From positions 1 through 64,000 of the forward strand of contig NZ_SLVM01000006.1 of NCBI RefSeq assembly GCF_004339675.1: a DNA stretch of 64,000 nt, in the 5' to 3' direction. This document shows positions 3,835-64,000 of this stretch, in pieces. A program made the position numbers and the translations under genes. Position 1 is the stretch's first letter. The number at the start of each line of letters is the position of its first letter. Below the pieces are notes generated by a model. That model searched no databases. It was not told the DNA's origin and saw nothing but the letters and a program-made list of their open reading frames with translations. This DNA comes from Rhodovulum steppense. GTDB taxonomy: Bacteria; Pseudomonadota; Alphaproteobacteria; Rhodobacterales; Rhodobacteraceae.

Positions 3835-4493
3835 GGCACGGGCGCGCCCGACCAGTCGAAGAAGCCGCCCGTTGCGCTTGTGTCGAGGCCTTCGATAACG
3901 GCCAGCAGGTTGGCCGCGGCCTGATCGGGCGGCACGGTCGGGTGGCGGGCGGCATGCGCGGCGGTGAAGGGCGTGGCGACGGTGCCGGGATGGAGGGCTG
4001 CGCAGATCGCCCGGGGATGGGTGCGGGCAAGCTCGATCGCCGCGCTGTGCAGCCCCTGGTTCAGCGCGGCCTTGGCCATGCGATAGGCATACCAGCCGCC
4101 CAGCCGGTTGTCGCCGATGGACCCGACCCGGGCCGACAGCGCGGCAAAGACCGCGCGGCGGTCGCGCGGCATCAGTCGGACAGCATGTTTCAGCACCAGA
4201 AGGGGGCCCGCGGCATTGACGGCGAAGTGATGGGCCAGCGCCTCGGGCGTCAATGCCCTCAACGCCTTTTCGGGGGGATGGCCCGCGCCGTTCAGAACGC
4301 CGGTGGCGACAAGGATCAGGTCGAACGGGCCGGTCAGCGCGCCAAGGCAGCGGGCGATGCTGGCCTCGTCGGTGACGTCCAGCGCGTGTTCGCGCCGCGA
4401 CAGGGCCGTGACCGATGCGCCCCGGTCGGCAAGCGCCGCGCAGAGGGCGGCGCCGATCCCGCCCGACGCGCCTATGACAAGGGTCCGTTTCAT
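3828..4493 (-). CDS. Short-chain dehydrogenase/reductase (SDR)
   Basis: This 221-residue classical SDR is close to the short CsgA/C-factor-like type. It has an N-terminal Rossmann glycine motif GASGGIGAAL (about residues 7-16) and the YxxxK active-site pair in YAYRMAKAAL. NAD(P)H-dependent carbonyl or alcohol chemistry is expected; the substrate is unknown. I chose the ATG at 4493; a TTG three codons upstream is possible. Its 3' end overlaps the photolyase start by 7 bp, which implies co-transcription and perhaps translational coupling. The promoter must share the intergenic region with the leuA leader on the other strand. Confidence 0.85.
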   Translation of the reverse strand: MKRTLVIGASGGIGAALCAALADRGASVTALSRREHALDVTDEASIARCLGALTGPFDLILVATGVLNGAGHPPEKALRALTPEALAHHFAVNAAGPLLVLKHAVRLMPRDRRAVFAALSARVGSIGDNRLGGWYAYRMAKAALNQGLHSAAIELARTHPRAICAALHPGTVATPFTAAHAARHPTVPPDQAAANLLAVIEGLDTSATGGFFDWSGAPVPW

Positions 4494-15439: not shown

Positions 15440-18400
15440 ATGCTGGAGGAAGCGACGCGCGCCGCCGAAGGGGGAGGCCCCGCGCTGTTCGTGCGCCGGC
15501 CGATCCTGGCGCTGGTGGTCTCGGCCCTGATCGTGCTGGCGGGGTTTGCCGCGCTGTTCGGGGTCGAGGTGCGCGAATTGCCCAATGTGGACCGGCCCGT
15601 GGTCACCGTCACGACCGATTTCCAGGGGGCGGCGCCCGAGACCATCGACCAGGAGATAACGGGCCGGATCGAGGGCGCGGTGGGCCGGGTGGCGGGCGTG
15701 CGCTCGATCTCGTCGAATTCGCGCTTCGGGCGCAGCCGGGTGACGGTGGAATTTTCCGAAAGCGTCGATATCGACGTCGCCGCGACCGATATCCGCGACG
15801 CGGTGGCCCGGGTCGAGGGGCAGTTGCCGACCGGGGCGGATGCGCCGCAGGTGGTCAAGGCCGATGCCGATGCCCAGCCGGTGATGCGGGTCGGCGTCAC
15901 CTCGTCGCGGCGCAGCGCGCAGGACCTGACGCAGATCGTCGAGGACCGGGTGCTGGACCGGATGATCTCGGTCGAGGGGGTGGCGGATGTGCGCGTCTAT
16001 GGCGACCGCGAGCCGATCTTTCGCGTCGATATCGACCAGGCGGCGCTGGCCAGCCGCGGGCTGACGCTGGCGGACATGGCGCGCGCGCTGTCGGATGCGG
16101 GGTTCAACGCGGCGGCGGGCGATCTGGAAGGTGCGCGGCAGTCGATCAATGTGCGCACGACGGCGATGGTCGCCTCGCCCGAGGCGTTCGAGGATCTGCG
16201 CATCGCGCCCCATGTCGAGATCCGCGACGTGGCCCGCGTGACGCTGGGCCCCGCGCCGAACGAGACGGTGCTGCGCGCGAACGGGCAGACCGGCATCGGG
16301 CTGGGCGTGATCCGGCAGGCGGGCAGCAACACGCTGGACATCTCGCGCAATGTGCGTGCGCTGGTGGCCGAGCTGGACCGCACCCTGCCCGAGGATCTGG
16401 ACATCTTCGTCACCTCGGATGACGCGATCTTCGTCAATGGCGCGATTGCCGAGGTGCTGAAGACGCTGGGGCTGGCCATCGCGATCGTGGTGGCGGTGAT
16501 CTTCCTGTTCCTGCGCGATGCGCGCGCCACGCTGATCCCCGCGCTGACCATGCCGGTCGCGCTGATCGGGACGCTGGCGGCGATCTACCTGGTGGGGTTC
16601 TCGGTCAATATCCTGACGCTGCTGGCGCTGGTGCTGGCCACGGGTCTGGTGGTGGATGACGCCATCGTGGTGCTGGAAAACATCGTGCGCCGCCGGGGCG
16701 AGGGGATGGGGCCGCGCGCGGCGGCGGTGCTGGGCACGAAACAGGTGTTCTTTGCGGTGGTGACGACGACGGCGACGCTGGCCGCGGTCTTCGTGCCGCT
16801 GTCCTTCCTGCCCGGACAGGCGGGGGGGCTGTTCCGCGAGTTCGGCTTCACGCTGGCGATTGCGGTCGGGATCTCGTCGGTGGTGGCGCTGACGCTCTGT
16901 CCGGTGCTGGCCAGCCGGCTGTTGCGTGCCGACGGGGAAAAGAAGGCGGGGCGCAGCCCGGTGGGCTGGCTGGGGGCGGTGCTGGCCGGGATCTATGCGC
17001 GGACGCTGCGCGGGGCGCTGGCAATGCCCTTTGTCGTGGTGCTGGTCGCGGTGCTGTTCGCGGCGACCGCCGTGCTGGTGGCGGGCGGCATCCGGCAGGA
17101 GCTGACCCCGCGCGAGGATCGCGCCGTGGCGCTGCTGCGGGTCAGCGCGCCGCAGGGCGTGTCGCTGGACTACACGCAGGAAAAGATGCTGGCCATCGAG
17201 GAAGCGGTGGCGCCCCTGCTGGAGACGGGCGAGATCACCGGCACTTTCGCGATCTCGGGGATGGGCACGGCCAATTCCGGCTTCATGGTGTTCCGGCTGG
17301 CCGATTGGGGCGAGCGCGCCCGCAGCCAGGACGAGATCGTGGGCGAGATCAACGCCAAGCTGCGCGAGATCGTGGGCGTGCGCGCCTTCGCGATCCAGCC
17401 CAATTCGCTGGGGATTCGCGGCGCCGGGCGGGGGCTGAGTTTCGCGATCACCGGCGACAGCTATGAGCGGCTGGCCGATCTGGCCGAGACGCTGGTCGAA
17501 CGGATGCAGGACGATCCCGCCTTTGGCGAGGTGCAGTTGGAATACGAGACCACGCAGCCGCAATTGTTCGTCGAGATCGACCGCACCCGCGCCGCCGATC
17601 TGGGCATCGACATCACCGGGCTGGGCGATGCGTTGCGGGCGATGCTGAACGGGCGGACGGTGGGCTCGGTCTTCATCGGCGACCAGAGCTATGACATCCA
17701 GATGCTGTCGAGCGCGAACCCGGTGAACGATCCGGGCGATCTGCAGAACATCTATGTGCGCACGGGCGACGGCCAGATGGTGCCGATGTCGAGTTTCGTG
17801 CATCTGGAGGAACGCCCCGTCGCCCCGGAACTGGACCGCGAGAACCAGGGCCGGGCGGTCAAGATCGCGGCCGGGCTGACCCCCGAACTGGCGCTGGGCG
17901 AGGCGCTGGTGCGGGTCGAGGCGCTGGCCGCCGATCTGATGGAGGAGCAGAACCGCATCGTGCCGCTGGGCGAGGCGGCGACGCTGAACCAGACCAATGC
18001 GGGGCTGCTGATCATCTTCGGCTTTGCCATCGCGGTGGTCTTCCTGGTGCTGTCGGCGCAGTTCGAAAGCTTCATCTCGGCGATCGTGGTGATGTCGACC
18101 GTGCCGCTGGGGCTGGCCTGCGCGGTCTTTGCGCTGATGCTGACCGGGCAAAGCCTGAACGTCTATTCGCAGATCGGGCTGGTGATGCTGATCGGGATCA
18201 TGGCCAAGAACGGCATCCTGATCGTCGAATTCGCCAACCAGTTGCGCGACGGGGGCGCGAGCGTGGCGCAGGCGGCCCATGATGCGGCGACGATCCGGCT
18301 GCGGCCGGTGATGATGACCATGGCCTCGACCGTGCTGGGCGGCGTGCCGCTGATCCTGTCCGCGGGCGCGGGCGCCGAGGCGCGCGAGGCGCTGGGCTGG

Positions 18401-18547
18401 GTGATCGTGGGCGGGCTGGGTCTGGCGACGCTGTCCACGCTGTATCTGACGCCGGTGGTCTATCTGCTGCTGGCGCGCTTCTCGAAACCGCGGGCGGAGG
18501 AAAGCAAGCGGCTGGCGCGCGAACTGGAAGAGGCGCTGGCGGGCTGA
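15440..18547 (+). CDS. RND efflux permease (AcrB/MexF-like, HAE1 type)
   Basis: This 1035-residue proton-driven efflux pump has 12 expected membrane segments and two large periplasmic loops. The first segment is ALVVSALIVLAGFAALFGV. The proton-relay Asp pair lies in ATGLVVDDAIVVLENI (TM4), and the second-half counterpart is GIMAKNGILIVEFANQL. The substrate cannot be predicted. The ribosome site GAAAGGAG is good. It forms a two-gene unit with the adaptor upstream; no regulator gene adjoins. Confidence 0.94.
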   Translation: MLEEATRAAEGGGPALFVRRPILALVVSALIVLAGFAALFGVEVRELPNVDRPVVTVTTDFQGAAPETIDQEITGRIEGAVGRVAGVRSISSNSRFGRSRVTVEFSESVDIDVAATDIRDAVARVEGQLPTGADAPQVVKADADAQPVMRVGVTSSRRSAQDLTQIVEDRVLDRMISVEGVADVRVYGDREPIFRVDIDQAALASRGLTLADMARALSDAGFNAAAGDLEGARQSINVRTTAMVASPEAFEDLRIAPHVEIRDVARVTLGPAPNETVLRANGQTGIGLGVIRQAGSNTLDISRNVRALVAELDRTLPEDLDIFVTSDDAIFVNGAIAEVLKTLGLAIAIVVAVIFLFLRDARATLIPALTMPVALIGTLAAIYLVGFSVNILTLLALVLATGLVVDDAIVVLENIVRRRGEGMGPRAAAVLGTKQVFFAVVTTTATLAAVFVPLSFLPGQAGGLFREFGFTLAIAVGISSVVALTLCPVLASRLLRADGEKKAGRSPVGWLGAVLAGIYARTLRGALAMPFVVVLVAVLFAATAVLVAGGIRQELTPREDRAVALLRVSAPQGVSLDYTQEKMLAIEEAVAPLLETGEITGTFAISGMGTANSGFMVFRLADWGERARSQDEIVGEINAKLREIVGVRAFAIQPNSLGIRGAGRGLSFAITGDSYERLADLAETLVERMQDDPAFGEVQLEYETTQPQLFVEIDRTRAADLGIDITGLGDALRAMLNGRTVGSVFIGDQSYDIQMLSSANPVNDPGDLQNIYVRTGDGQMVPMSSFVHLEERPVAPELDRENQGRAVKIAAGLTPELALGEALVRVEALAADLMEEQNRIVPLGEAATLNQTNAGLLIIFGFAIAVVFLVLSAQFESFISAIVVMSTVPLGLACAVFALMLTGQSLNVYSQIGLVMLIGIMAKNGILIVEFANQLRDGGASVAQAAHDAATIRLRPVMMTMASTVLGGVPLILSAGAGAEAREALGWVIVGGLGLATLSTLYLTPVVYLLLARFSKPRAEESKRLARELEEALAG

Positions 18548-18625
18548 CGCGCGGGGCGGTTGACCGCAGGCCCGGCGGGCGGGATACTTGCCCCCGGACC
18601 GCGAGGGGAGGCGCGGCTCTGCCGC

Positions 18626-19717
18626 ATGCTGGTTTACGGGTATGATTACAGGCTGATCGCCGCCTCCGTGCTCATCTCGATGATGGCCGCGTTCACCGGG
18701 CTTGCGCTGACCCGCGGGCTGTCGGGCGTGTCCGAAGGCGTGCGCCACCTGCGCATCGCGATGGCGGCGGTGGCGCTGGGCGGCGGCATCTGGACGATGC
18801 ATTTCGTGGCCATGCTGGCGATGCGTTTCGAGGTGGCGGTGTATTATCGCGCGCTGCCCACGGTGGCCTCGGTGCTGATCGCGATCCTGCTGGCGGGGCT
18901 GGCGCTGATCCTGATGCATTTCGGGCGGCGCACGGGGCCGCGCATGGGGCTGGCGGGGGCGGTGCTGGGCCTGGGGATCGTGGCGATGCACTACACCGGG
19001 CTGTCCGCCATAGAGGGCTGCGCGCCGGTCTATCGCCCCACTGGCTTTGCGGTGGCGGGCGGGCTGGCGGTCGGGCTGGGGGTGCTGGCGATCCGGGTGG
19101 CCTATGGGCAGCGGCGGGCGGCGAACATCCTGGGCGCGACGGCGATCTTCGGGCTGTCGGTGGCGATCGTGCATTTCGCGGCGATGCACTGGACCGGGTT
19201 TGCCCGGGCGGTGGCCGGTGCGGCGGCGGGTCCGGCCATCGACAACGCGCATCTGGCGCTGATCGTGCTGGTGACGGCCTTCGTCATTTCGGGGGCGTTC
19301 CTGCTGTCGGGGGCGTCGTTTCTGGCGGCGGCCCCTGGTCCGGACGCGCCGCCCCCGGCCGAGCCCGCGCCGCCGCCCGCCACCGGCCCCCGCCTGCCCT
19401 ATGAGCGCGAGGGGGTGACCTATTTCCTGCCCGCCGCCGAGGTGGCCGCGATCCGGGCCGAGGGGCATTACACCATCGCCTATGCGCCCCTTGGCCGGGT
19501 CTTCTGCCCCTGGTCGATCAGCGAGGCGGAAAAGCGGCTGACCCCGGCCGGGTTCTTTCGCGTGCATCGCAGCTATCTGGTCAATACCGCCCATGTCGCC
19601 GCCTTCGAGCGGCTGAAGGACAACGGCATCTGCCGGTTCGAAGGGCTGGCCGATCTGGACCGGGTGCCGGTCAGCCGCTCGCGCGTGCAGGCGCTGCGCG
19701 CGGCGCTGGGGCTTTGA
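18626..19717 (+). CDS. coxC: CoxC-like MHYT-LytTR membrane regulator of CO oxidation
   Basis: This 363-residue protein has an N-terminal seven-segment MHYT domain (repeated TMHFVAM, AMHYTG and AMHWTG motifs; such motifs are proposed to bind copper and sense a gas), a Pro/Ala linker (about 235-260), and a C-terminal LytTR DNA-binding domain (about 262-360, with FFRVHRSYLVNTAHV). This architecture is that of CoxC/CoxH of Oligotropha carboxidovorans, and it lies directly upstream of coxMSL. It probably senses CO or O2 at the membrane and activates the operon. I prefer ATG 18626 (after GAGGGGAGG) over the ATG at 18560, which would add an unlikely N-terminal extension. Confidence 0.82.
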   Translation: MLVYGYDYRLIAASVLISMMAAFTGLALTRGLSGVSEGVRHLRIAMAAVALGGGIWTMHFVAMLAMRFEVAVYYRALPTVASVLIAILLAGLALILMHFGRRTGPRMGLAGAVLGLGIVAMHYTGLSAIEGCAPVYRPTGFAVAGGLAVGLGVLAIRVAYGQRRAANILGATAIFGLSVAIVHFAAMHWTGFARAVAGAAAGPAIDNAHLALIVLVTAFVISGAFLLSGASFLAAAPGPDAPPPAEPAPPPATGPRLPYEREGVTYFLPAAEVAAIRAEGHYTIAYAPLGRVFCPWSISEAEKRLTPAGFFRVHRSYLVNTAHVAAFERLKDNGICRFEGLADLDRVPVSRSRVQALRAALGL

Positions 19718-19873: not shown

Positions 19874-20725
19874 ATGATCCCAGCGAGATTCGACTATCAC
19901 CGGCCGGACTCCGTCGCGGCGGCGGTAGGGCTGTTGCAGCAGCATGGCGACGAGGCGCGCGTGGTTGCGGGCGGGCACAGCCTGATCCCGATGATGAAGC
20001 TGCGCATGGCCGCGCCTGCGCATCTGGTGGACCTGCAGGGCATCGCCGCGTTGCGCGGGATCGAGGCGGGCGACCGGATCCGGATCGGGGCGATGGTCAC
20101 GCAATCCGAGATGCTCGCCCATGCCGGGCTGGCCGAGGCCGCGCCGATCCTGGCCGAGGCCGCGCGCCAGATCGCCGATCCGCAGGTGCGCAACCTGGGC
20201 ACCGTCGGCGGCAATGTGGCGAATGGCGATCCGGGCAACGACCTGCCCGCGCTGATGCTGTGCCTGGATGCGACCTTCACGCTGGAGGGGCCGGAGGGCG
20301 TGCGTGAGGTCGCGGCGCGCGGCTTCTACGAGGCGCCCTATGTGACCGCGCGGGAGGAGGAGGAGATCCTGACCGCGGTCGGCTTTGACCGCCCGGCCCG
20401 CGGGTTCGCCTATGAAAAGCAGAAGCGCAAGATCGGCGATTACGCGACCGCCGCGGCTGCCGTGCTGATCGGGGCCGAAGGGGGGCGCGTCGTCTCGGCC
20501 TCGGTCGCGATGACCAATCTGGCGGATGTGCCGGTCTTCAGCGCGGCGGCCGGCGAGGTCCTTCTGGGCAGCGACTGCGGGGAGGACGCGGTCGCCGCCG
20601 CCGTGGACGCCATGCAGGGCGATATCGACCCGGTCGAGGACAATCGCGGACCCGTGGAGTTCAAGCGCCATGTCGCGGGCGTGATCCTGGCCCGCGCCAT
20701 CGCGCGGGCCTGGTCGCGCGTCTGA
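19874..20725 (+). CDS. coxM: Carbon monoxide dehydrogenase medium subunit (FAD)
   Basis: This 283-residue FAD-binding subunit passes electrons from the 2Fe-2S subunit to the quinone pool. The FAD motifs of the xanthine-oxidase family are visible: [13 protein letters not shown] (about residues 35-47) and the [15 protein letters not shown] region (about residues 112-126). The start [11 protein letters not shown] with GGAGGAGCGGGAG upstream is clear. The gene order M-S-L is that of aerobic CO dehydrogenases. Confidence 0.93.
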
Positions 20726-20736
20726 GGGAGGACGAG

Positions 20737-21227
20737 ATGTCGAACAGGATGCACCTGACGCTGAAGGTGAATGGCGAGGCGGTCGAGACGCTGGCCGAGC
20801 CGCGCGAATTGCTGATCCATGTGCTGCGCGAGCGGCTGGGGATCACCGGCCCGCATATCGGCTGCGAGACCAGCCATTGCGGCGCCTGCACCGTCGACAT
20901 GGACGGCAAATCGGTCAAGGCCTGCACGATCTTTGCCGCGCAGGCGCAGGGGGCCGAGATCACCACGATCGAGGGGATCGGCACGCCCGACAGCCTGCAT
21001 GTGCTTCAGGAGATGTTCCGCGAGCATCACGGGCTGCAATGCGGCTTCTGCACGCCGGGGATGATTACCCGGGCCTGGCGGCTGTTGCAGGAAACCCCGT
21101 CGCCGACCGAGGAGGAGGTGCGCTTCGGCATGGCCGGGAACCTGTGCCGCTGCACCGGCTATCAGAACATCGTCAAGGCGGTGCTGGCCGCTGCCAATGA
21201 ACTGAACACCGTCAAGGAGGCCGCGGA

Positions 21228-21231
<4 letters not shown>
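20737..21231 (+). CDS. coxS: Carbon monoxide dehydrogenase small subunit (two 2Fe-2S)
   Basis: This 164-residue iron-sulfur subunit carries a plant-ferredoxin-like cluster ([15 protein letters not shown], with the fourth Cys in VKAC) and a C-terminal four-helix cluster (CGFCTPGM and [10 protein letters not shown]). It transfers electrons from the Mo-Cu site to FAD. The start has GAGGGAGGACGAG upstream. It overlaps coxL by 4 bp. Confidence 0.95.
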
Positions 21232-23641
<2,410 letters not shown>

Positions 23642-23645
<4 letters not shown>

Positions 23646-23992
23646 GGCGCGCGGTTGTTCTGGCGGCCATGCTTGCCGCCGCCCCGGCGCTGGCGCAGCA
23701 CGCCCATCACCAGCATGGCGCGGCCGGGGGGGACAGCCCCTCGACCGCCGCCTATCGCGCGGCGAATGACCGGATGCATGCGGAGATGGAGATTCCCTTT
23801 ACGGGGGATGCCGATATCGACTTCGTGCGGGGCATGATTCCCCACCACCAGGGCGCCATCGACATGGCGCGCGTGGTGCTGGAATTCGGCGAGAACCCCG
23901 AGATCCGGGCGCTGGCCGAAGGGATCATCGCCGCGCAGGAGGAAGAGATCGCGCAGATGCGCGCCTGGCTGGAAAAGAACGCGAGCCAATGA
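23642..23992 (+). CDS. Secreted DUF305 protein in the cox operon, possible copper-binding
   Basis: This 116-residue protein has a Sec signal peptide ([17 protein letters not shown]) and a mature part starting with the His cluster HAHHQHG, then a DUF305 helical domain with [13 protein letters not shown] (about residues 64-76). Some DUF305 proteins, such as cyanobacterial CopM, bind copper through His and Met. It overlaps coxL by 4 bp and coxD by 4 bp, so it is an integral part of the operon. Since form I CODH needs copper, a role in copper handling is an attractive but untested inference. I do not recall such a gene in the Oligotropha cox cluster. Confidence 0.85.
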
Positions 23993-24870
23993 CCGGCGGG
24001 GCCGCGGCGTTGCAGGCGCAGCTTTCCGGGGCGGGCTATGTCGCCTCGGACGAGCTGGCCATGGCGCTTTACCTTGCGCTGGAACTGGAACGGCCGCTGC
24101 TGCTGGAAGGCGCGGCGGGGGTCGGCAAGACCGAGGTGGCCAAGGTGCTGGCGGCGCTGAAATCGGCGCCGCTGATCCGGCTGCAATGCTATGAGGGGCT
24201 GGATGCCAGCCACGCGATCTACGAGTGGAACTATCAGCGGCAATTGCTGGCGATCCGGGCCGCGGGCGAAAGCGGCGCGGCGGGGCCGGGGCTGGAGGCG
24301 CGGATATTCTCGGAGGACTACCTGCTGGAACGGCCGCTGTTGCAGGCGATCCGGCAGGCGGTGCCGCCTGTCCTGCTGATCGACGAGATCGACCGGGCGG
24401 ATGAGGAGTTCGAAGCCTATCTGCTGGAAATCCTGTCGGATTTCACGATCTCGATCCCCGAGCTGGGCACCATCCACGCGACCGCGCGGCCGCATGTGAT
24501 CCTGACCTCGAACGGCACGCGCGACCTGTCGGACGCGCTGAGGCGGCGCTGCATCTATGCCTATGTCGAGTATCCCGACCCGGCGACGGAACTGGCGATC
24601 CTGGAAAAGCGCCATCCGGGGCTGGAGCCGCGGCTGGCGGCGCAGATCGTGGGCTTCGTGCAGGCGCTCAGGCGCGAGGATCTGGACAAGGTGCCGGGCG
24701 TGGCCGAGACGCTGGATTTCGCCGCGGCCGTTTCGGGGCTGGGGGTGGCGGACCTGACCGACGATCCGGGGACGCTTCAGGCGGCCCTGGTCACGCTGCT
24801 GAAGACGCAGGCCGACCGGGCGCGGGTGCCGAGCGAGGTGGCGCAGCGGCTGGCGGGGCGGGCGGCATGA
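23989..24870 (+). CDS. coxD: CoxD, MoxR-type AAA+ ATPase for CODH maturation
   Basis: This 293-residue AAA+ protein has Walker [13 protein letters not shown] (about residues 42-53), Walker [14 protein letters not shown], and sensor-1 [11 protein letters not shown]. In Oligotropha, CoxD is a membrane-associated chaperone needed to insert sulfur and copper into the Mo site of CoxL. It pairs with CoxE (vWA) immediately downstream, the typical MoxR/vWA partnership. It overlaps both neighbours by 4 bp. Confidence 0.92.
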
Positions 24871-26042
24871 GCGGGGTCACGCGCTTTCCCGCCCGCGCGA
24901 CCGGGCCGGCCGAGCGGATGGCGGGGTTCATGGCGCATCTGCGGCTGAACGGGCTGGCGGCGGGGGTCGACGGGACGGCGACCGCGCTGGCGGCGGCGGC
25001 GCGGGTCGATCCGACCGATCCGGGGCAATTGCGGCTGGCGCTGAAGGCGGTCTGCGCAGGCACGCGGGATGAGGCCGACCGCTTCGACGACCTTTTCGCG
25101 GCCTGGTGGCTGAACCGCGGGCGGGAGCGGGCGGGCGCGGGGCCGGGAAAAACGGCGGAACCCCGGCGCCGGTCGCCCTTCGTCACCGAGGCGCTGTCGG
25201 CTTTGGGGCGGGGACAGGCCGACCGACCCGAGGGCGGCGAGGGCGCGGCGGACCAGTCGGGCGAGGGGCGGCTGGTGGGCGCGCGCGTCGCGCGGCTGGA
25301 CCGCACCGATCTGCGCGATCTGGTCAGCCCCGAGGATATCGCGGAGGCCGAGGCCACCGCGCGGCGCATCGCGCAGGCGATCCGCGACCGCCGCGCGCGC
25401 CGGTTCAGGGCCGACCGGCGGGGGGCGCGGGTGGATTTGCGGCGCACGCTGCGGGCCTCGGTCGCGACGGGGGGCGAGCCGCTGCGGCTGTTTCGCCGCA
25501 CCCGGCCCGACCGGCCCGCCAATATCGTGGCGCTGTGCGATGTCTCGGGCTCGATGACGGTCTATGCCCGCGTGTTCCTGTCCTTCCTCAAGGGGCTGAT
25601 CGGGGCGGATTTCAGGGCGGACGCCTACCTCTTTCACACCCGACTCGTGCGGATCACCGACGCGCTGCGCGATCCCGACCCGTTGCGCGCGGTCAACCGG
25701 CTGAGCCTGATGGCGCAGGGCTTTGGCGGGGGGACGCGGATCGGGGGGGCGCTGGCGGCGTTCAACCGGGGCCATGCCAAGGCGCGGGTCAATGGGCGGT
25801 CGGTGGTGATCGTGCTGTCGGACGGCTATGACACCGACCCGCCGGGGATGATCGGCGCGGAACTCGCGCGGCTGAGGAAGCGCGGCTGCCGGATCGTCTG
25901 GCTGAACCCGCTGCTGGGTTGGCGGGACTACGCACCCGTCGCGCGCGGGATGGCGGCCGCCCTGCCCCATCTGGACCATTTCGCGGCGGCCAACACGCTT
26001 GCGGCGCTGGCCGCGCTGGAACCGGAGCTTGCGCGGCTATGA
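24867..26042 (+). CDS. coxE: CoxE, von Willebrand factor A domain protein
   Basis: This 391-residue CoxE-like protein has a basic, low-complexity N-terminal half and a C-terminal vWA domain. The MIDAS motif is DVSGSM (about residues 223-228), with the Thr in GGGTRIGGAL and the Asp in LSDGYDTDPPG. In Oligotropha it works with CoxD and CoxF in copper insertion into CODH. It overlaps coxD and coxF by 4 bp each (ATGA). Confidence 0.9.
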   Translation: MSGVTRFPARATGPAERMAGFMAHLRLNGLAAGVDGTATALAAAARVDPTDPGQLRLALKAVCAGTRDEADRFDDLFAAWWLNRGRERAGAGPGKTAEPRRRSPFVTEALSALGRGQADRPEGGEGAADQSGEGRLVGARVARLDRTDLRDLVSPEDIAEAEATARRIAQAIRDRRARRFRADRRGARVDLRRTLRASVATGGEPLRLFRRTRPDRPANIVALCDVSGSMTVYARVFLSFLKGLIGADFRADAYLFHTRLVRITDALRDPDPLRAVNRLSLMAQGFGGGTRIGGALAAFNRGHAKARVNGRSVVIVLSDGYDTDPPGMIGAELARLRKRGCRIVWLNPLLGWRDYAPVARGMAAALPHLDHFAAANTLAALAALEPELARL

Positions 26043-26863
26043 AACCGATGAGACAGGACGACATCCTTGAGCGCATCGCGGAACTGAAACGCGCAGGCAC
26101 CGCCTTTGCGGTGGCGACCGTGGTGCGCACGGTGCGCGCGACGGCGGCCAAGGCCGGGGCCAAGGCGGTGATCCTGCCCGATGGCACGGTGCTGGCGGGC
26201 TGGATCGGCGGCGGCTGCGCGCGGGGCGCGGTGATCCGGGCGGCGCGCGAGGCGCTGGCGGATGGCGCGCCGCGGCTGATCTCGGTCCAGCCGGAAGAGG
26301 CGCTGGCGCAAGGCGGTCTGGCCCCGGGCGAGACGCGCGACGGCATCCGCTTTGCCCGCAACATGTGCCCGAGCCGGGGCATGATGGACATTTTCGTGGA
26401 GGCCGTGATGCCCGCCCCCGAATGCGTGATCTGCGGCGCCGCGCCGGTGGCGGTCGCGCTGGCCGATCTGGCGCCGCGCATGGGTTTTTCGGTCACCGCC
26501 TGCGCGCCCGCCGAGGAACAGGCCGCCTTTGCCGCGCCGGACCGGCGGATCGAGGGCTATGCGCTGGAGGTGGCCCCGAATGGCGCGCGCTATGTCGTCG
26601 TGGCGACGCAGGGCAAGGGGGACGAGGCGGCGCTGCGCGCGGCGCTGTCGGTGCCGTCGGACTATGTGGCCTTTGTCGGCAGCCGGGCCAAGACCGCGGC
26701 GCTGCGCGACAGGCTGACCGCGGCGGGGGTGGCGCCGGAGGCGTTCGCGAACCTGCGCGCGCCCGCGGGGCTGGATCTGGGCGCGATCACGCCCGAGGAA
26801 ATCGCGCTGTCGATCCTGGCCGAGATGGTGGCCCTGCGCCGGGCGGGCCAGCGCGGGGGCTGA
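26039..26863 (+). CDS. coxF: CoxF, XdhC/CoxI family maturation factor
   Basis: This 274-residue XdhC-family protein has an N-terminal XdhC/CoxI domain with GWIGGGCARGAV (about residues 53-64) and a C-terminal Rossmann-like domain with VICGAAPVAVALADLA and FVGSRAKTAALRDRL. Such proteins bind and sulfurate the molybdenum cofactor before its insertion. ATG 26039 lies in the coxE stop. It is the last gene of the operon here; coxG, coxI and a second MHYT gene are not found downstream, where the convergent urease operon begins after 6 bp. Confidence 0.88.
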   Translation: MKPMRQDDILERIAELKRAGTAFAVATVVRTVRATAAKAGAKAVILPDGTVLAGWIGGGCARGAVIRAAREALADGAPRLISVQPEEALAQGGLAPGETRDGIRFARNMCPSRGMMDIFVEAVMPAPECVICGAAPVAVALADLAPRMGFSVTACAPAEEQAAFAAPDRRIEGYALEVAPNGARYVVVATQGKGDEAALRAALSVPSDYVAFVGSRAKTAALRDRLTAAGVAPEAFANLRAPAGLDLGAITPEEIALSILAEMVALRRAGQRGG

Positions 26864-57251: not shown

Positions 57252-58850
57252 ATGTGGGACTACGTTAAGATCGCCGTCTATGGCGTCATCGCGGTATGTG
57301 CCGCGATCGCGGCGAGCTATGCACGCGACTTCGCATATCAGGTTCATGCGCTGATTGTGATGCTGGTCGCGGCGGGGCTGTTTCTGTGGACCGTGCGGCG
57401 CACTGGCGACCCGAAACCGGTGCCCGACACAGGATATATGGACGATGTCGTCCGCGCGGGCGTCATCGCGACCGCATTCTGGGGAGTGATCGGCTTTGCC
57501 GCGGGCACCTTCATCGCCAGCCAGCTGGCCTTTCCCTGGCTCAATTTCGAATGGGCGCAGGGCTATCTGAACTTCGGCCGTCTGCGGCCCCTTCACACCT
57601 CGGCGGTGATTTTCGCCTTCGGCGGCAACGCCCTGATCGCGACCTCGTTCTATGTGGTCCAGCGCACCAGCGCCGCACGGCTCTGGGGCGGCAATGCCGC
57701 CTGGTTCGTGTTCTGGGGCTACCAGCTCTTCATCGTGCTTGCGGCGACGGGCTATGTGCTGGGCGCGACCCAGTCCAAGGAATACGCCGAGCCGGAATGG
57801 TATGTGGACATCTGGCTGACGATCATCTGGGTGGTCTATCTGGCGATCTTCCTCGGCACGATCTTCCGGCGCAAGGAACCCCATATCTACGTCGCGAACT
57901 GGTTCTACCTGTCCTTCATCGTGACCGTCGCGATGCTGCATATCGTCAACAACCTGTCGATCCCGGTCTCGATCTTCGGCTCGAAATCGGTGCAGGTCTT
58001 CGCGGGCGTGCAGGACGCGATGATCCAGTGGTGGTATGGCCACAACGCGGTCGGCTTCTTCCTGACCGCGGGCTTCCTGGGCATGATGTACTATTTCGTG
58101 CCCAAGCAGGCCGAACGCCCGGTCTACAGCTACAAGCTGTCGATCATCCACTTCTGGGCGCTGATCTTCCTTTATATCTGGGCCGGTCCGCACCACCTGC
58201 ACTACACCGCGCTGCCCGACTGGGCCTCGACGCTGGGCATGGTGTTCTCGATCATGCTGTGGATGCCCTCCTGGGGGGGCATGATCAACGGCCTGATGAC
58301 GCTGTCGGGAGCCTGGGACAAGCTGCGCACCGATCCGGTGATCCGGATGATGGTGGTCGCCGTGGGCTTCTACGGCATGTCCACCTTCGAAGGGCCGATG
58401 ATGTCCATCAAGGCGGTCAACTCGCTGTCGCACTACACCGACTGGACCATCGGGCATGTGCATTCCGGCGCGCTGGGCTGGAATGGCATGATCACCTTTG
58501 GCGCGCTCTATTTCCTGGCGCCGCGGCTCTGGGGCAAGGAGCGGCTTTACTCCAATGCGCTGGTGTCCTGGCACTTCTGGCTCGCCACCATCGGGATCGT
58601 GCTCTACGCCGCCTCGATGTGGGTCTCGGGCATCATGGAAGGGCTGATGTGGCGTGAGGTCGATGCCCAGGGCTTCCTGGTCAACAGCTTCGCCGACACG
58701 GTCGACGCCAAGTTCCCGATGTATGTGGTCCGCGCCATCGGCGGGGGGCTTTATGTCCTCGGCGGTCTGATCATGTGCTTCAACATCTGGAAGACCGCCA
58801 CCTCCGCACCGGCCCGTCAACCCGCGCGCGTCGCAGCCCCTGCGGAATGA
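57252..58850 (+). CDS. ccoN: Cytochrome cbb3 oxidase catalytic subunit CcoN
   Basis: This 532-residue heme-copper oxidase subunit I has 12 or more membrane segments. Heme and copper ligand histidines are visible in [14 protein letters not shown], the [16 protein letters not shown] loop and [13 protein letters not shown], with the late pair in [12 protein letters not shown]. It reduces O2 to water with high affinity. ATG 57252 follows GAAGGGAC. It leads ccoNOQP, with 12 bp to ccoO. Confidence 0.97.
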
Positions 58851-58862
58851 GGAGCAGAAGCC

Positions 58863-59591
58863 ATGGCCATTCTTGAAAAGCACAAGATCCTTGAGAAGAA
58901 CGCCTCGCTGCTGCTGGTGTTCAGCTTCCTCGTGGTGACCGTCGGCGGTCTGGTGGAGATCGCGCCGCTCTTCTACCTCGAGAACACGATCGAGGAGGTG
59001 GAGGGCGTGCGCCCCTACTCGCCGATGGAGCTGGAAGGGCGCGACATCTATGTCCGCGAGGGCTGCTATGTCTGCCACAGCCAGATGATCCGTCCGATGC
59101 GCGACGAGGTGGAACGCTACGGGCATTACAGCCTTGCGGCCGAGTCGATGTATGACCATCCGTTCCAGTGGGGGTCCAAGCGGACGGGGCCGGATCTGGC
59201 CCGCGTCGGCGGGCGCTATTCGGACGACTGGCATGTGCAGCACCTGCGCGACCCGCAGGCGCTGGTGCCGGAATCGATCATGCCGAAATACGGCTTCCTC
59301 GAGAACCGGATGATCGACCCGCAGGGGATCGCGGACAAGCTGCGCGTTCACCGCATGGTCGGCGTGCCCTATACCGACGAGATGATCGAGAACGCGGTGG
59401 CGGATTTCAACGCGCAGATCGACCCGTTCTCGGATGGCGCCGATGCGTTGCTGGAACGCTATCCCGGCGCGCAGGTGCGCAATTTCGACGGCAAGCCGGG
59501 CATCTCGGAAATGGATGCGCTGGTGGCCTACCTTCAAATGCTGGGCACGCTGGTCGATTTCTCGACCTTCGAGCCGCATGCAAGCCGGTAG
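58863..59591 (+). CDS. ccoO: Cytochrome cbb3 oxidase monoheme subunit CcoO
   Basis: This 242-residue membrane-anchored c-type cytochrome has an N-terminal anchor ([20 protein letters not shown]), one heme-binding CYVCH (about residue 70), and a Met ligand probably in [11 protein letters not shown]. It passes electrons from CcoP to CcoN. Ribosome site GAGGAG. Length and motifs are canonical. Confidence 0.97.
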
Positions 59592-59600
59592 GGGGGTGCA

Positions 59601-59813
59601 ATGGAAACCTATACCGCCATGCGCGCCTTTGCGGACAGCTGGATGCTCTTGTTCCTGACGCTGTTCTTCGTCGGCGTGATCTTCTGGGCGCTGCGCCCGG
59701 GCAGCGCGCGGGTGCATCGCGACAGCGCCGATATCCCGTTCCGACATGACAACGAACCCGCCCCGTCCCGCGACGCGGATGAGGCCGCCCGCCACAAGGA
59801 GGCGCGGACATGA
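59601..59813 (+). CDS. ccoQ: Cytochrome cbb3 oxidase small subunit CcoQ
   Basis: This 70-residue single-span protein has a membrane segment [19 protein letters not shown] and an acidic/His-containing tail ([17 protein letters not shown]). CcoQ stabilises the oxidase; in Rhodobacter sphaeroides it was also linked to redox signalling. It overlaps ccoP by 4 bp. Confidence 0.92.
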
Positions 59814-60697
59814 GCACGAGCGACAAGAAACCCCTGCCCGAAGACGTGGTCGGCACCACCGGGCACAGTTGGGACGGCATCGAGGAGTTGAACAACCCCC
59901 TGCCGCGCTGGTGGCTCTGGTCCTTCTACGCCTGCATCGCCTTCGCGCTGATCTATGTGGTCCTCTACCCGGCGGTTCCGCTGAAATCGGGCGCGACGCC
60001 GGGGCTTCTGGGTCATTCGACCCGGGCCGAGGTGGCGCGCGAGATCGAGCGCTTCCATGAGGCGAATGCCGACCTGGTGGCGCGCCTGATCGAGGCGGAC
60101 CTGGACCCCGAGGTGATCCGCGCCGATCCCGACCTCTACAACTACGCCGTGCAGGGCGGGGCCGCGGTGTTCCGGACCTGGTGCGCGCAGTGCCACGGCT
60201 CGGGTGCGGCGGGCGTGCAGGCGGCGGGCTATCCCAGCCTTCTGGACGATGACTGGCTGTGGGGTGGCGCGCTGGAGGACATCTATACCACCGTGACCCA
60301 TGGCATCCGCAACGAGGACGATCCCGATGCGCGCTGGTCCCAGATGCCTGCCTTCGGTGTGGACGAGTTGCTGACCCAGGAGGAAATCGGGCAGGTCGTG
60401 CATTACGTCCGAAAAATTTCCGGACAGGAACATGATGCCGCATTGGCAAGCGATGGCGAAGAGGTGTTTCTATACAACTGTGCCTCGTGCCACATGGACG
60501 ATGGAACCGGAGACCGCTACCAGGGCGCGCCCAATCTGACGGATGCGATCTGGCTTTATGGCGGAAGTGTCGAGACGCTGACCGAGACGGTGTTCTATTC
60601 GCGCTTTGGCGTCATGCCGAGCCACCAGGAACGCCTGAGCGAGGCCGACCGGCGTGCGGTTGCGACCTATGTCCATCAGCTTGGCGGGGGCGAGTGA
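59810..60697 (+). CDS. ccoP: Cytochrome cbb3 oxidase diheme subunit CcoP
   Basis: This 295-residue membrane-bound diheme cytochrome c has an N-terminal membrane segment ([20 protein letters not shown]), then two cytochrome c domains with CAQCH (about residue 125) and CASCH (about residue 224). It receives electrons from the bc1 complex through soluble or anchored cytochromes. It is the last gene of ccoNOQP and is followed by a hairpin. Confidence 0.97.
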
Positions 60698-60709
60698 GAT
60701 CAAAGTCTT

Positions 60710-60731
60710 CCGGGGGCCGCAAGGCCCCCGG
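60710..60731 (+). terminator. Hairpin terminator after ccoNOQP
   Basis: CCGGGGGCC (60710-60718) and GGCCCCCGG (60723-60731) pair perfectly with a GCAA tetraloop, 13 bp after the ccoP stop. No T-run follows. Confidence 0.6.
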
Positions 60732-60738
60732 TCGATGG

Positions 60739-60781
60739 CACCGGCCCCCATCCTGTTCGCGCGTTTCCACGGGGGCCGGTG
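60739..60781 (+). repeat. Second inverted repeat downstream of ccoP
   Basis: CACCGGCCCCC (60739-60749) and GGGGGCCGGTG (60771-60781) pair perfectly over 11 bp around a 21-base loop. It shares the GGGGGCC core with the first hairpin, so alternative pairings are possible. It may be a back-up terminator or an mRNA-stabilising structure. Confidence 0.45.
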
Positions 60782-61030
60782 TTCATCCTCGCCCATCCCC
60801 CCGAACCCGTCCAGCGCGCCAGATGAGACCCGGCTGTTCGTCCGCGCACAGATTTGGAACTTTTCCAGTTCTCAGGCGGGGTGCCCGCTGATTCGGTCCG
60901 GCCGCGGCCCACAATGTGAACGGGCGGACGCTTTCAATCGCCCGGCGCAAGGTCTAGTTAGAACAGATGCAGGGTCCAGTGTCGCGCCGCGACCGGCCGG
61001 CCGGGCCTGCAGCCCGAACGGAGAGAGCCC

Positions 61031-62464
61031 GTGAGCTCGACAGAACAGCCCCCCGAACGCCTTTACGTCGCCCGCGAACCGATCTTTCCGCGCCGCGTCT
61101 CGGGCAGGTTCCGCACCATCAGATGGTGGCTTCTCGCGATCTGCCTCGGCCTTTATTATCTTCTGCCCTGGCTGCGCTGGGACCGGGGGCCGAACCTCCC
61201 CGACCAGGCGGTGCTGATCGACCTTGCCAACCGGCGCTTCTTCTTCTTCTGGATCGAGATCTGGCCGCACGAGTTCTATTTCGTCGCGGGCCTGCTGATC
61301 ATGGCGGGGCTGGGGCTGTTCCTGTTCACCTCGGCGCTGGGTCGGGTCTGGTGCGGCTATTTCTGCCCGCAGACGGTCTGGACCGACCTGTTCATCCTGA
61401 CCGAGCGCTGGATCGAGGGCGACCGAAACAAGCGCGTGAGGCTGTGGAACCAGAAATGGGATTTCCGCAAGACGCGCCTGCGGTTCAGCAAGTGGACGCT
61501 GTGGCTGGCGATTTCCATTGCGACGGGCGGCGCCTGGGTGTTCTACTTCGCCGATGCGCCGACCCTGCTCTGGCAGCTTGTCACGCTTCAGGCCCACCCG
61601 GTCGCCTATTCCACGATCCTTGTTCTCACGCTGACGACGCTGATCCTGGGCGGGTTCATGCGCGAACAGGTCTGCATCTACATGTGTCCCTGGCCGCGCA
61701 TCCAGGCCGCGATGATGGACGAGGACACGATCACCATCGGCTATCGCGACTGGCGGGGCGAGCCGCGCGGCAAGCATCGCAAGGCCGAAGGCGCCGAGGT
61801 GCTGGGCGATTGCATCGACTGCTTTGCCTGTGTGAACGTCTGCCCCATGGGCATCGACATCCGCGACGGCCAGCAACTGGCCTGCATCACCTGCGGGCTG
61901 TGCATCGACGCCTGCGACGAGGTGATGGAGAAGATCGGCAAGCCGCGCGGGCTGGTCGACTACATGGCGCTGTCGGACGAGACGCGCGAACGCGCAGGCG
62001 AAAGGCCCCGCTCGGTCTGGACCCATGTCTTCCGCACCCGCACCGTCCTTTATACCGTGCTCTGGTCGGCGGTCGGCGTGGGCCTGATGGTCGCGCTGTT
62101 CGTGCGCTCCGACATCGACCTGACGGTGGCGCCGATCCGCAACCCGACCTTCGTGACGCTGTCGGACGGCTCGATCCGCAACGCCTATGAGGTGCGTGTG
62201 CGCAACATGCAGGGCGAGGCGCGCGATTTCGCGATCACCGTCGTCCCGGCGGATGTCTTCAAGATCGAGATCGAGGGCGCCGAGGGCGGCACGTTCACCG
62301 TTGCGCCGGATGCGACCGAGCTCAAGCGCGTCTATGTCATCGTCCCCCCGGGCAGCGCCCCGGCAACCGCCCAGAGCACGCCAATGCGGCTGTGGCTGGA
62401 AGACCTGGCCGCCGCCGAGCGGGCCTTCAACGACACCATCTTTCACGGAAGGACAACGCCATGA
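61031..62464 (+). CDS. ccoG: CcoG/RdxA, ferredoxin-type cbb3 assembly protein
   Basis: This 477-residue membrane protein has two [4Fe-4S] sites (DCIDCFACVNVCPMG from C261 and LACITCGLCIDACDE). Further cysteines lie in GRVWCGYFCPQTVWTD and QVCIYMCPWPRIQ. About five membrane segments and a C-terminal Ig-like periplasmic domain (FixG C-terminal) are present. CcoG acts in copper reduction during cbb3 assembly. The start is GTG 61031 after GGAGAGAG. It overlaps ccoH by 4 bp. Confidence 0.96.
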   Translation: MSSTEQPPERLYVAREPIFPRRVSGRFRTIRWWLLAICLGLYYLLPWLRWDRGPNLPDQAVLIDLANRRFFFFWIEIWPHEFYFVAGLLIMAGLGLFLFTSALGRVWCGYFCPQTVWTDLFILTERWIEGDRNKRVRLWNQKWDFRKTRLRFSKWTLWLAISIATGGAWVFYFADAPTLLWQLVTLQAHPVAYSTILVLTLTTLILGGFMREQVCIYMCPWPRIQAAMMDEDTITIGYRDWRGEPRGKHRKAEGAEVLGDCIDCFACVNVCPMGIDIRDGQQLACITCGLCIDACDEVMEKIGKPRGLVDYMALSDETRERAGERPRSVWTHVFRTRTVLYTVLWSAVGVGLMVALFVRSDIDLTVAPIRNPTFVTLSDGSIRNAYEVRVRNMQGEARDFAITVVPADVFKIEIEGAEGGTFTVAPDATELKRVYVIVPPGSAPATAQSTPMRLWLEDLAAAERAFNDTIFHGRTTP

Positions 62465-62925
62465 AAACGAATGAACTGACAGGTCGAAAGGTTCTTTTCA
62501 TCGTGGTTTCGTTCTTCGGGGTCATCATCGTCGTCAACCTCTTCATGGCGTTCAAGGCGGTCAGCACCTTCCCCGGCCTGGAGGTCAAGAACTCCTATGT
62601 CGCCAGCCAGCATTTTGACGCGATGCGCGACGCGCAAGAGGCGCTGGGCTGGACCGCAGGGGCCGATTACGACGCCGCGGCGGGGCTGTTCCTGCTGCGC
62701 CTGACGGATGCCGATGGCTTGCCGGTGCGGGCGCCCGAGGTGGCGGTAACGATCGGCCGGGCGACCAGCACGCGCGACGACCGCGCACCCGGACTGACCT
62801 ATTACAACGGCGCGTTCTCGGCGCCCATGGAACTTGGCCCCGGCTACTGGACGGTGCGTCTCGAAGCCCGGGCCGCGGATGGCACGCTGTTCCGCCAGCG
62901 GCTGCAGCTTTACGTCCGGGGCTAG
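62461..62925 (+). CDS. ccoH: CcoH/FixH cbb3 assembly protein
   Basis: This 154-residue protein has one N-terminal membrane segment (VLFIVVSFFGVIIVVNLFMA) and a periplasmic FixH domain (SYVASQHFDAMRDAQEALGW; YWTVRLEARAADGTLF). It is needed for stable cbb3 oxidase. It starts in the ccoG end (4-bp overlap) and ends 4 bp before ccoI. Confidence 0.93.
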   Translation: MKTNELTGRKVLFIVVSFFGVIIVVNLFMAFKAVSTFPGLEVKNSYVASQHFDAMRDAQEALGWTAGADYDAAAGLFLLRLTDADGLPVRAPEVAVTIGRATSTRDDRAPGLTYYNGAFSAPMELGPGYWTVRLEARAADGTLFRQRLQLYVRG

Positions 62926-62929
62926 GACG

Positions 62930-64000
62930 ATGGGCGCCGCGCTTCCGTCCCGGCCCGCGGCCTGCCCGGCCTGCGCGGTGGTCCCCTCGGCCGAGGCGCT
63001 GGCCGAGGCTGCTGCGCCGCGGGATGCACGACTGGTACTGTCCCTGCCCACGATCCATTGTGCGGGATGCATCTCGGCGGTCGAGCGTGCCCTGGAGGCG
63101 ACCCCCGGCGTGCGGGAGGCGCGCGTGAACCTGACGTTGAAACGCGTCGCAGTCGCAACCGAACCGGACCTGACCGCCGAGGCCCTGATCACCGTGCTCG
63201 ACCGGGCAGGCTACGAGGCGCATGAGCTCGACGCCGGCATGATCGCCGCGACCGCGACCGACAGGGCAGGGCGCGACCTGTTGATGCGCATCGCGGTCTC
63301 GGGCTTTGCGATGATGAACATCATGCTGCTGTCGGTGGCGGTCTGGTCGGGGGCCAGCGACTTCACCCGCGACATGTTCCACTGGATCTCGGCGATGATC
63401 GCATTGCCCACCGTCGCCTTTGCCGGCCAGCCCTTCTTTCGCAGCGCCGCACGGGCGCTGGGGGCGCGACGGCTGAACATGGATGTGCCGATTTCCCTGG
63501 CGCTGATCCTGGCCACGGGCTTTTCGCTTTACGAGACCTCGCAGCACGGGCCGCACGCCTATTTCGACGCGGCGGTCGCGCTGACCTTCTTCCTTCTGGC
63601 GGGGCGCTATCTCGACCACCGTACCCGCGCGGTGGCGCGCTCCGCGGCCGAGGAACTGGCCGCGCTGGAAGTGCCGCGCGCGATCAGGCGGCGGGCCGAC
63701 GGCACCGAGGAAACCGTGCCCGTGGCCGGAATCACGGTGGGCGACATCGTGCTGGTGAAACCCGGCGCGCGCGTGCCGGTGGACGGCGTGATCGCCGAGG
63801 GCCGGTCCGAGATCGACCGTTCCCTGCTGACCGGAGAGACCCTGCCCGCCTATGCCGAGCCCGGTCTTGCGGTCTCGGCGGGCGAGGTGAACCTGACCGG
63901 GCCGCTTGCCGTGACCGTCACCGCCGCGGGGCAGGACACGTCGCTGCACCGCATGGCAGAACTGGTGGCTGTCGCCGAAAGCGCGAAGAACCGCTACACC
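62930..64000 (+). CDS. ccoI: CcoI/FixI copper-transporting P1B-type ATPase (N-terminal part)
   Basis: The first 357 residues are present; the gene runs off the window. An N-terminal CPAC pair precedes a heavy-metal-associated domain with the CAGCIS motif (about residues 44-49). Membrane segments follow, and then the actuator domain with SLLTGETLPAY. The phosphorylation site DKTGT lies beyond the edge. CcoI exports Cu(I) to supply the cbb3 oxidase. It follows ccoGH in the usual ccoGHIS order; ccoS should be next. Confidence 0.95.
   Translation, partial: MGAALPSRPAACPACAVVPSAEALAEAAAPRDARLVLSLPTIHCAGCISAVERALEATPGVREARVNLTLKRVAVATEPDLTAEALITVLDRAGYEAHELDAGMIAATATDRAGRDLLMRIAVSGFAMMNIMLLSVAVWSGASDFTRDMFHWISAMIALPTVAFAGQPFFRSAARALGARRLNMDVPISLALILATGFSLYETSQHGPHAYFDAAVALTFFLLAGRYLDHRTRAVARSAAEELAALEVPRAIRRRADGTEETVPVAGITVGDIVLVKPGARVPVDGVIAEGRSEIDRSLLTGETLPAYAEPGLAVSAGEVNLTGPLAVTVTAAGQDTSLHRMAELVAVAESAKNRYT

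Follow-up and report, generated by a model that had tools for sequence, protein, structure and literature searches.

The form I CO dehydrogenase (CODH) operon of Rhodovulum steppense carries a gene for a DUF305 protein of the CopM family at the junction of coxL and coxD, a rare variant in which an established type of operon has taken up a copper protein of an established kind. The family of the protein, its conserved ligands, the match of its fold, the position of its gene and the rarity of the arrangement make it somewhat probable that the protein is an accessory buffer or carrier of periplasmic copper that is made together with the CO-oxidation system. The window referred to here is the whole stretch of 64,000 nucleotides of contig NZ_SLVM01000006.1 that was analysed, and its relevant features are listed in Table 1.

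Table 1. The cox operon of the window and the gene inserted in it, with positions in the window.
Feature	Positions	Strand	Basis
coxC-like MHYT-LytTR regulator	18560..19717	+	37% identity to OM5 MHYT protein in CoxC position
coxM	19874..20725	+	ORF and Pfam
coxS	20737..21231	+	ORF and Pfam
coxL, form I CODH large subunit	21228..23645	+	TIGR02416; AYRCSFR at 22368-22388
CopM-family (DUF305) protein, 116 aa, apparently exported	23642..23992	+	profiles, alignment, model
Putative Sec signal peptide, residues 1-18, ends ALA	23642..23695	+	by eye; residues 1-30 low pLDDT
MHAEM, residues 45-49, candidate copper ligands M45/H46/M49	23774..23788	+	invariance in alignment
MIPHH (MxxHH), residues 65-69	23834..23848	+	M65/H68/H69 invariant in 43/43
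coxD, AAA+ ATPase	23989..24870	+	ORF and Pfam
coxE, VWA protein	24867..26042	+	ORF and Pfam
coxF, XdhC-type protein, MCPSRGMM in place of OM5 MCPSHGTM	26039..26863	+	Pfam, OM5 alignment

The inserted gene opens with ATG, closes with TGA and, as the original prediction had stated and the coordinates bear out, shares 4 bp (ATGA) with coxL on one side and with coxD on the other. Overlaps of the same length lie at coxS/coxL (21228-21231), coxD/coxE (24867-24870) and coxE/coxF (26039-26042), so that all five junctions of the chain coxS-coxL-DUF305-coxD-coxE-coxF are of this kind, and the overlaps suggest co-translation of the DUF305 gene with the cox genes. Every cox gene from the coxC-like gene to coxF lies on the + strand. 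The large subunit belongs to form I, scoring 1396 bits with TIGR02416 against a cut-off of 991. AYxCSFR is the active-site loop motif of form I CoxL, and the loop of the window protein (residues 381-387) reads AYRCSFR, as it does in 73 of 123 form I CoxL sequences, with SYRCSFR in 49 and one not read. The cluster has the form I layout of coxM-S-L followed by coxD-E-F, and its order is that of the cox operon on plasmid pHCG3 of Afipia (Oligotropha) carboxidovorans OM5 (MHYT regulator, coxM, S, L, D, E, F) except for the inserted gene. OM5 has 54 bp and no gene between coxL and coxD, whereas the window has DUF305 there, and no DUF305 gene stands beside coxL on the OM5 plasmid. In addition, coxG follows coxF in OM5, whereas OM5 CoxG finds no tblastn match in the 64 kb of the window. 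An AcrB-type RND efflux pump gene (15440-18547) lies directly 5' of the coxC-like gene on the same strand. The window also holds a second copper enzyme with its own maturation genes, a cbb3-type oxidase cluster at 57252-64000 (COX1-type subunit at 57252, FixG/CcoG-like gene at 61031), which is followed by a P-type ATPase (match at 63674) that runs past the window end.

The protein matches DUF305 (PF03713, 71.4 bits, E 1.1e-19) and the CopM family metallochaperone model NF049983 (124.2 bits against a cut-off of 90, positions 1-73 of 73), scores that place the ORF far beyond a chance ORF. The cox-linked proteins of two other genomes of the family, G696 and G660, pass NF049983 as well, with 120 and 118 bits. 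The putative signal peptide, assigned by eye, ends in ALA at residues 16-18 and predicts a mature start of QHAHHQHG, one residue ahead of the HAHHQHG named in the original prediction. A similar His-rich stretch follows the signal in several relatives, and the N terminus was accordingly rejected as a special trait. The HHQGAIDM motif, also put forward earlier as a mark of metal binding, is present (residues 68-75) but occurs family-wide. Six residues, M45, H46, M49, M65, H68 and H69, are invariant in all 43 aligned sequences. The AlphaFold model reaches a pLDDT of about 95-99 over residues 31-110 and contains three confident helices (33-49, 57-82 and 86-113), and this three-helix domain probably dimerises. 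The top Foldseek match in the PDB is 7vw1 (rmsd 1.2-1.6 A, 42-43% identity, probability 1.00, TM on the target 0.82-0.85), titled as a dimeric periplasmic protein bound with cuprous ions, and the next matches are 7vw0 and then CopM in its Cu(I), Ag and Cu(II) forms. Given membership in the CopM family and nearest solved folds that hold Cu(I), the protein is very likely to bind copper, as judged from its sequence and predicted structure, and the earlier expectation of copper binding thereby gains support. Between the window gene and that of Rhodovulum tesquicola (locus L119) dN/dS is 0.16, a value resting on just 10 differences.

The protein of structures 7vw0-7vw2, which by their title are probably those of Yang et al. 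2022, is single-domain like that of the window, with 40-43% identity and an rmsd of 1.2-2.8 A, and holds cuprous ions in 7vw1. CopM of Synechocystis sp. PCC 6803 (5fej, 5ffa-5ffe) likewise shares with it the DUF305 fold, MxxHH and an N-terminal export signal, which for the window protein is the putative one assigned by eye. CopM, however, has two DUF305 domains and is encoded in copMRS, next to a two-component system for copper (PMC4335983), whereas the window protein has one domain and is encoded in a CO-oxidation operon. The same source describes CopM as a protein of copper resistance that occurs in the periplasm and in part outside the cell, with a KD for Cu(I) of about 3e-16, and a CopM MxxHH peptide is reported to bind Cu(II) strongly (PMC11836926). 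Among 120 neighbours of other DUF305 genes that were scanned, left of 164 once near-duplicate loci had been removed by hand, the commonest family was the heavy-metal-associated domain (HMA; 18/120); P-type ATPases were as frequent as class I aminotransferases (9/120 each), these being raw counts with no background rate. This neighbour set had earlier excluded L111, L113, L114 and L119, and neighbours of more than 900 aa. The DUF305 gene of Tabrizicola piscis lies in a plain copper cluster, in the row cueR, heavy-metal ATPase, HMA, DUF305, copper ATPase. Weak DUF305 matches of about 40 bits were also seen in frames of about 200-300 aa in G419, G543, G610, G620 and other genomes, sometimes several per genome, and perhaps represent a different, longer protein family.

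The placement between coxL and coxD, hereafter the slot, was surveyed across Pseudomonadota, with the two best CoxL candidates per genome scored in class, family and phylum searches. Form I CoxL is present in 101 of the 394 genomes of the family Rhodobacteraceae, and DUF305 lies in the slot in three of these, the window genome, G696 and G660; genome-wide searches and inspection of the slot found none beside coxL at the other 98 loci. CoxD lay outside the stretch at four of the 101 loci (L042, L049, L272 and L273), of which three belong to genomes with no DUF305 match and the fourth to G643, whose single DUF305 match is weak (40 bits) and lies on another contig, and whose slot runs off the contig end. 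Outside the family, DUF305 occupies the slot at none of 20 form I loci, of which the class search (385 genomes) gave 12 and the phylum search (398 genomes) a further 8; CoxD was not observed at L005 and L017, and no DUF305 was found anywhere in their genomes. Within Rhodovulum, 5 of 16 genomes, the window included, possess form I, and two of these carry DUF305 in the slot (the window genome and G786, with 97% identity between the proteins); the slot of L115 is occupied by a RidA-like gene, and those of the other two are empty. The nearest named relative found for the operon is that of R. tesquicola (CoxL 98%, DUF305 97%), in which both ATGA overlaps are retained. The sole other genome of the genus of G696 has form I and no DUF305 in the slot.

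At the level of whole genomes, DUF305 occurs in 28 of the 101 genomes with form I, in 27 of them above the Pfam cut-off, versus 30 in a sample of 80 genomes without form I drawn from 292 in the family (Fisher p 0.20), and DUF305 was therefore rejected as a general marker of form I genomes; without the three cox-linked cases the figures are 25/101 versus 30/80 (p 0.07), with the trend reversed against form I. Among the 80 best of 103 DUF305 loci in GTDB species, L119 alone is cox-linked, in a search that is incomplete, having reached its loci through two peptide patterns and having failed to recognise G696 and G660 in the best 80. A general placement of DUF305 beside any large subunit of xanthine-oxidase type was likewise rejected, CoxL being adjacent only in L119 of 91 loci, a lower bound because flanks extended up to 7 kb or up to about 5 kb and were shorter at contig ends; in L160, a 43% relative lies about 6.5 kb away. 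A query joining the CoxL tail, DUF305 and the CoxD head matched none of 72,556 plasmid records with at least 80% coverage, and the 15 best (H61-H75) align to CoxL and CoxD as two pieces (57-65% coverage), 12 being annotated as CODH and 3 unannotated. The stretch matched in H3 (Paracoccus versutus) carries no annotation. No paper linking DUF305 with CO dehydrogenase or coxL was found in the open-access literature, and a DUF305 gene in a sulfite-oxidation paper was discarded as a molybdoenzyme lead, being described in that text as a sigma-factor target and not placed there in a molybdoenzyme operon (PMC6527743). The original prediction had called for a survey of form I clusters for an association with DUF305; with three of 101 loci in the family, none of 20 outside it and no genome-level link, such an association is all but absent, and DUF305 is not upheld as a general form I-specific copper-delivery factor.

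A phylogenetic tree of DUF305 (88 of 94 rows, after identical ends were dropped) places the Rhodovulum pair apart from the G696/G660 pair, and 0% of 200 bootstrap trees join them; an AU test over 110 columns does not reject a single clade (p 0.302). On the CoxL tree (FastTree, 123 rows of at least 700 aa from the 125 loci given), each pair lies nested within clusters that lack the slot gene. Two separate captures into one slot are suggested by these trees as the simpler reading, though not a proven one. Under a rough null, in which 37 other DUF305 matches fall at random on an assumed 4000 positions, 0.009 would be expected in the slot, whereas two genomes beyond the window have DUF305 there, perhaps through one event. 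The placement thus looks non-random, as DUF305 occupies the same slot in a second lineage. The slot also accepts other genes: a RidA-like (YjgF) gene is found there at 2 of the 101 family loci and in one congener of the window (L244 and L115, at 3839-4372 in the latter, by Pfam; L243 by eye), and a CoxG/SRPBCC-like gene outside the family (L002, L199 and L202 by eye; H73 by annotation). The slot is thus permissive, although in two lineages a copper protein occupies it. Many loci (L103, L117, L209, L014 and others) show a G+C-rich hairpin lacking a T run in the intercistronic gap between coxL and coxD. Among the 104 of 125 loci counted, the minimum free energy is under -15 kcal/mol in 98, and z is under -2 against single-base shuffles in only 66. 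In G696 and G660 a hairpin follows DUF305, and the genes of the window, overlapping by 4 bp, have no gap between them. The hairpin may set different levels of the enzyme and the maturation genes.

One alternative, possible though on the unlikely side, is that the operon took in a gene of general copper tolerance in the periplasm, which is induced by CO through accident of position, with its product serving the whole cell in copper tolerance or in the copper supply of the cbb3-type oxidase. The second lineage with the same slot, set against the 0.009 expected at random, and the tight ATGA embedding retained in the sister species R. tesquicola argue for more than an accident. Such an origin would nevertheless suit a gene that is the sole DUF305 match of its 3.66-Mb genome and has relatives in copper loci, a slot open to unrelated genes such as RidA, the absence of a genome-level link between form I and DUF305, and the presence of the cbb3-type cluster at 57-64 kb of the window.

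A dedicated supply of copper to CODH, as the original prediction proposed, is unlikely. It would require capture of copper in the periplasm, passage through an inner-membrane importer and transfer by CoxE/CoxF to CODH. The premise that cox clusters generally have no assigned protein for copper delivery is not supported as it was worded: in OM5, CODH from coxE and coxF mutants is reported to lack copper, and a role as copper carrier is proposed for CoxF (PMC4240915). The window retains CoxD, CoxE and CoxF, and with coxE and coxF kept, the apparently exported DUF305 protein would be an extra. Substitution of CoxF by DUF305 was considered and rejected, the CoxF of the window aligning with that of OM5 with the motif MCPSRGMM. 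CODH is a cytoplasmic enzyme, and since the DUF305 protein is apparently exported, direct hand-over of copper between the two is unlikely and a transporter would be needed; no copper importer or transporter was recognised with Pfam and NCBIfam among the cox genes scanned. Added to this are the 98 of 101 family loci, and the OM5 plasmid, with no DUF305 beside coxL, the regular presence in form I clusters expected of a dedicated chaperone being replaced by three loci of 101 in the family and none of 20 outside it, and CoxE and CoxF as the genetically shown copper factors of OM5. These points stand against the copper need of form I CODH, with which the operon position and the copper family fit, and against the variability of CoxF. 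Across 68 loci scanned for the CoxF motif (L101-L103, L119, L213-L273, L274, L283 and L284), the stretch was not found in 17, and the first position of the motif, Met in OM5 (MCPSHGTM), is Met in 7 of the remaining 51 and Gly in 44. The proposed CoxF copper ligand is thus not conserved in most scanned clusters, which tempers the case against the original premise.

A further possible client is CoxC, the CO sensor of the operon, although it is quite unlikely that the CopM-like protein supplies or tunes its copper site. In OM5, copper is reported to be required for the CO response of CoxC, and its MHYT residues are placed near the periplasmic side (PMC11347149). The window CoxC is 37% identical to that of OM5 and keeps the MH and MHY residues. 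CoxC homologues are present in all three slot-gene genomes tested, the window genome, G696 and G660, and likewise in L119; that of G660 shares a contig with the cox genes, at a distance of about 24 kb. Homologues are also present without the slot gene in G743 and OM5, so a CopM-like carrier for CoxC would be an add-on. Were it true, a Cu(I) carrier induced along with the operon could load CoxC from the periplasm and couple CO induction to copper supply; supply of CoxC falls within the accessory buffer or carrier reading. A functionless, neutral insertion on its way to loss is very improbable, its patchy presence in the genus (2/5) being outweighed by an intact frame, invariant ligands, a dN/dS of 0.16 between two species and both ATGA overlaps kept in L119.

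For an accessory periplasmic buffer or carrier count the NF049983 score, the Cu(I) fold match, the invariant ligands, the copper-gene neighbours, the slot of the second lineage and the dN/dS of 0.16; against it count its absence from three of the five form I clusters of the genus and 98 of 101 in the family, the lack of a genome-level form I link, the RidA-like slot genes, the AU result (p 0.302) and the lack of a recognised importer. The ancestor of the slot gene would have served copper homeostasis, and its capture at the coxL-coxD junction would cause the protein to be made when CO induces the cox operon. Once exported to the periplasm, its invariant Met/His sites would hold Cu(I). The CO system has two copper needs that such a protein may meet, the CoxC site near the periplasmic face and the cytoplasmic CODH, whose copper must cross the periplasm, and it would buffer or carry periplasmic copper either as a supply for CODH or to keep free copper low. 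CoxD, CoxE and CoxF would not be replaced by it, and most related cox operons lack the slot gene. Besides CODH, a Mo-Cu enzyme, the CO sensor of the operon requires copper, at a site close to the periplasm. Operons with a captured periplasmic copper protein, beside congeners without it, constitute a natural with/without comparison.
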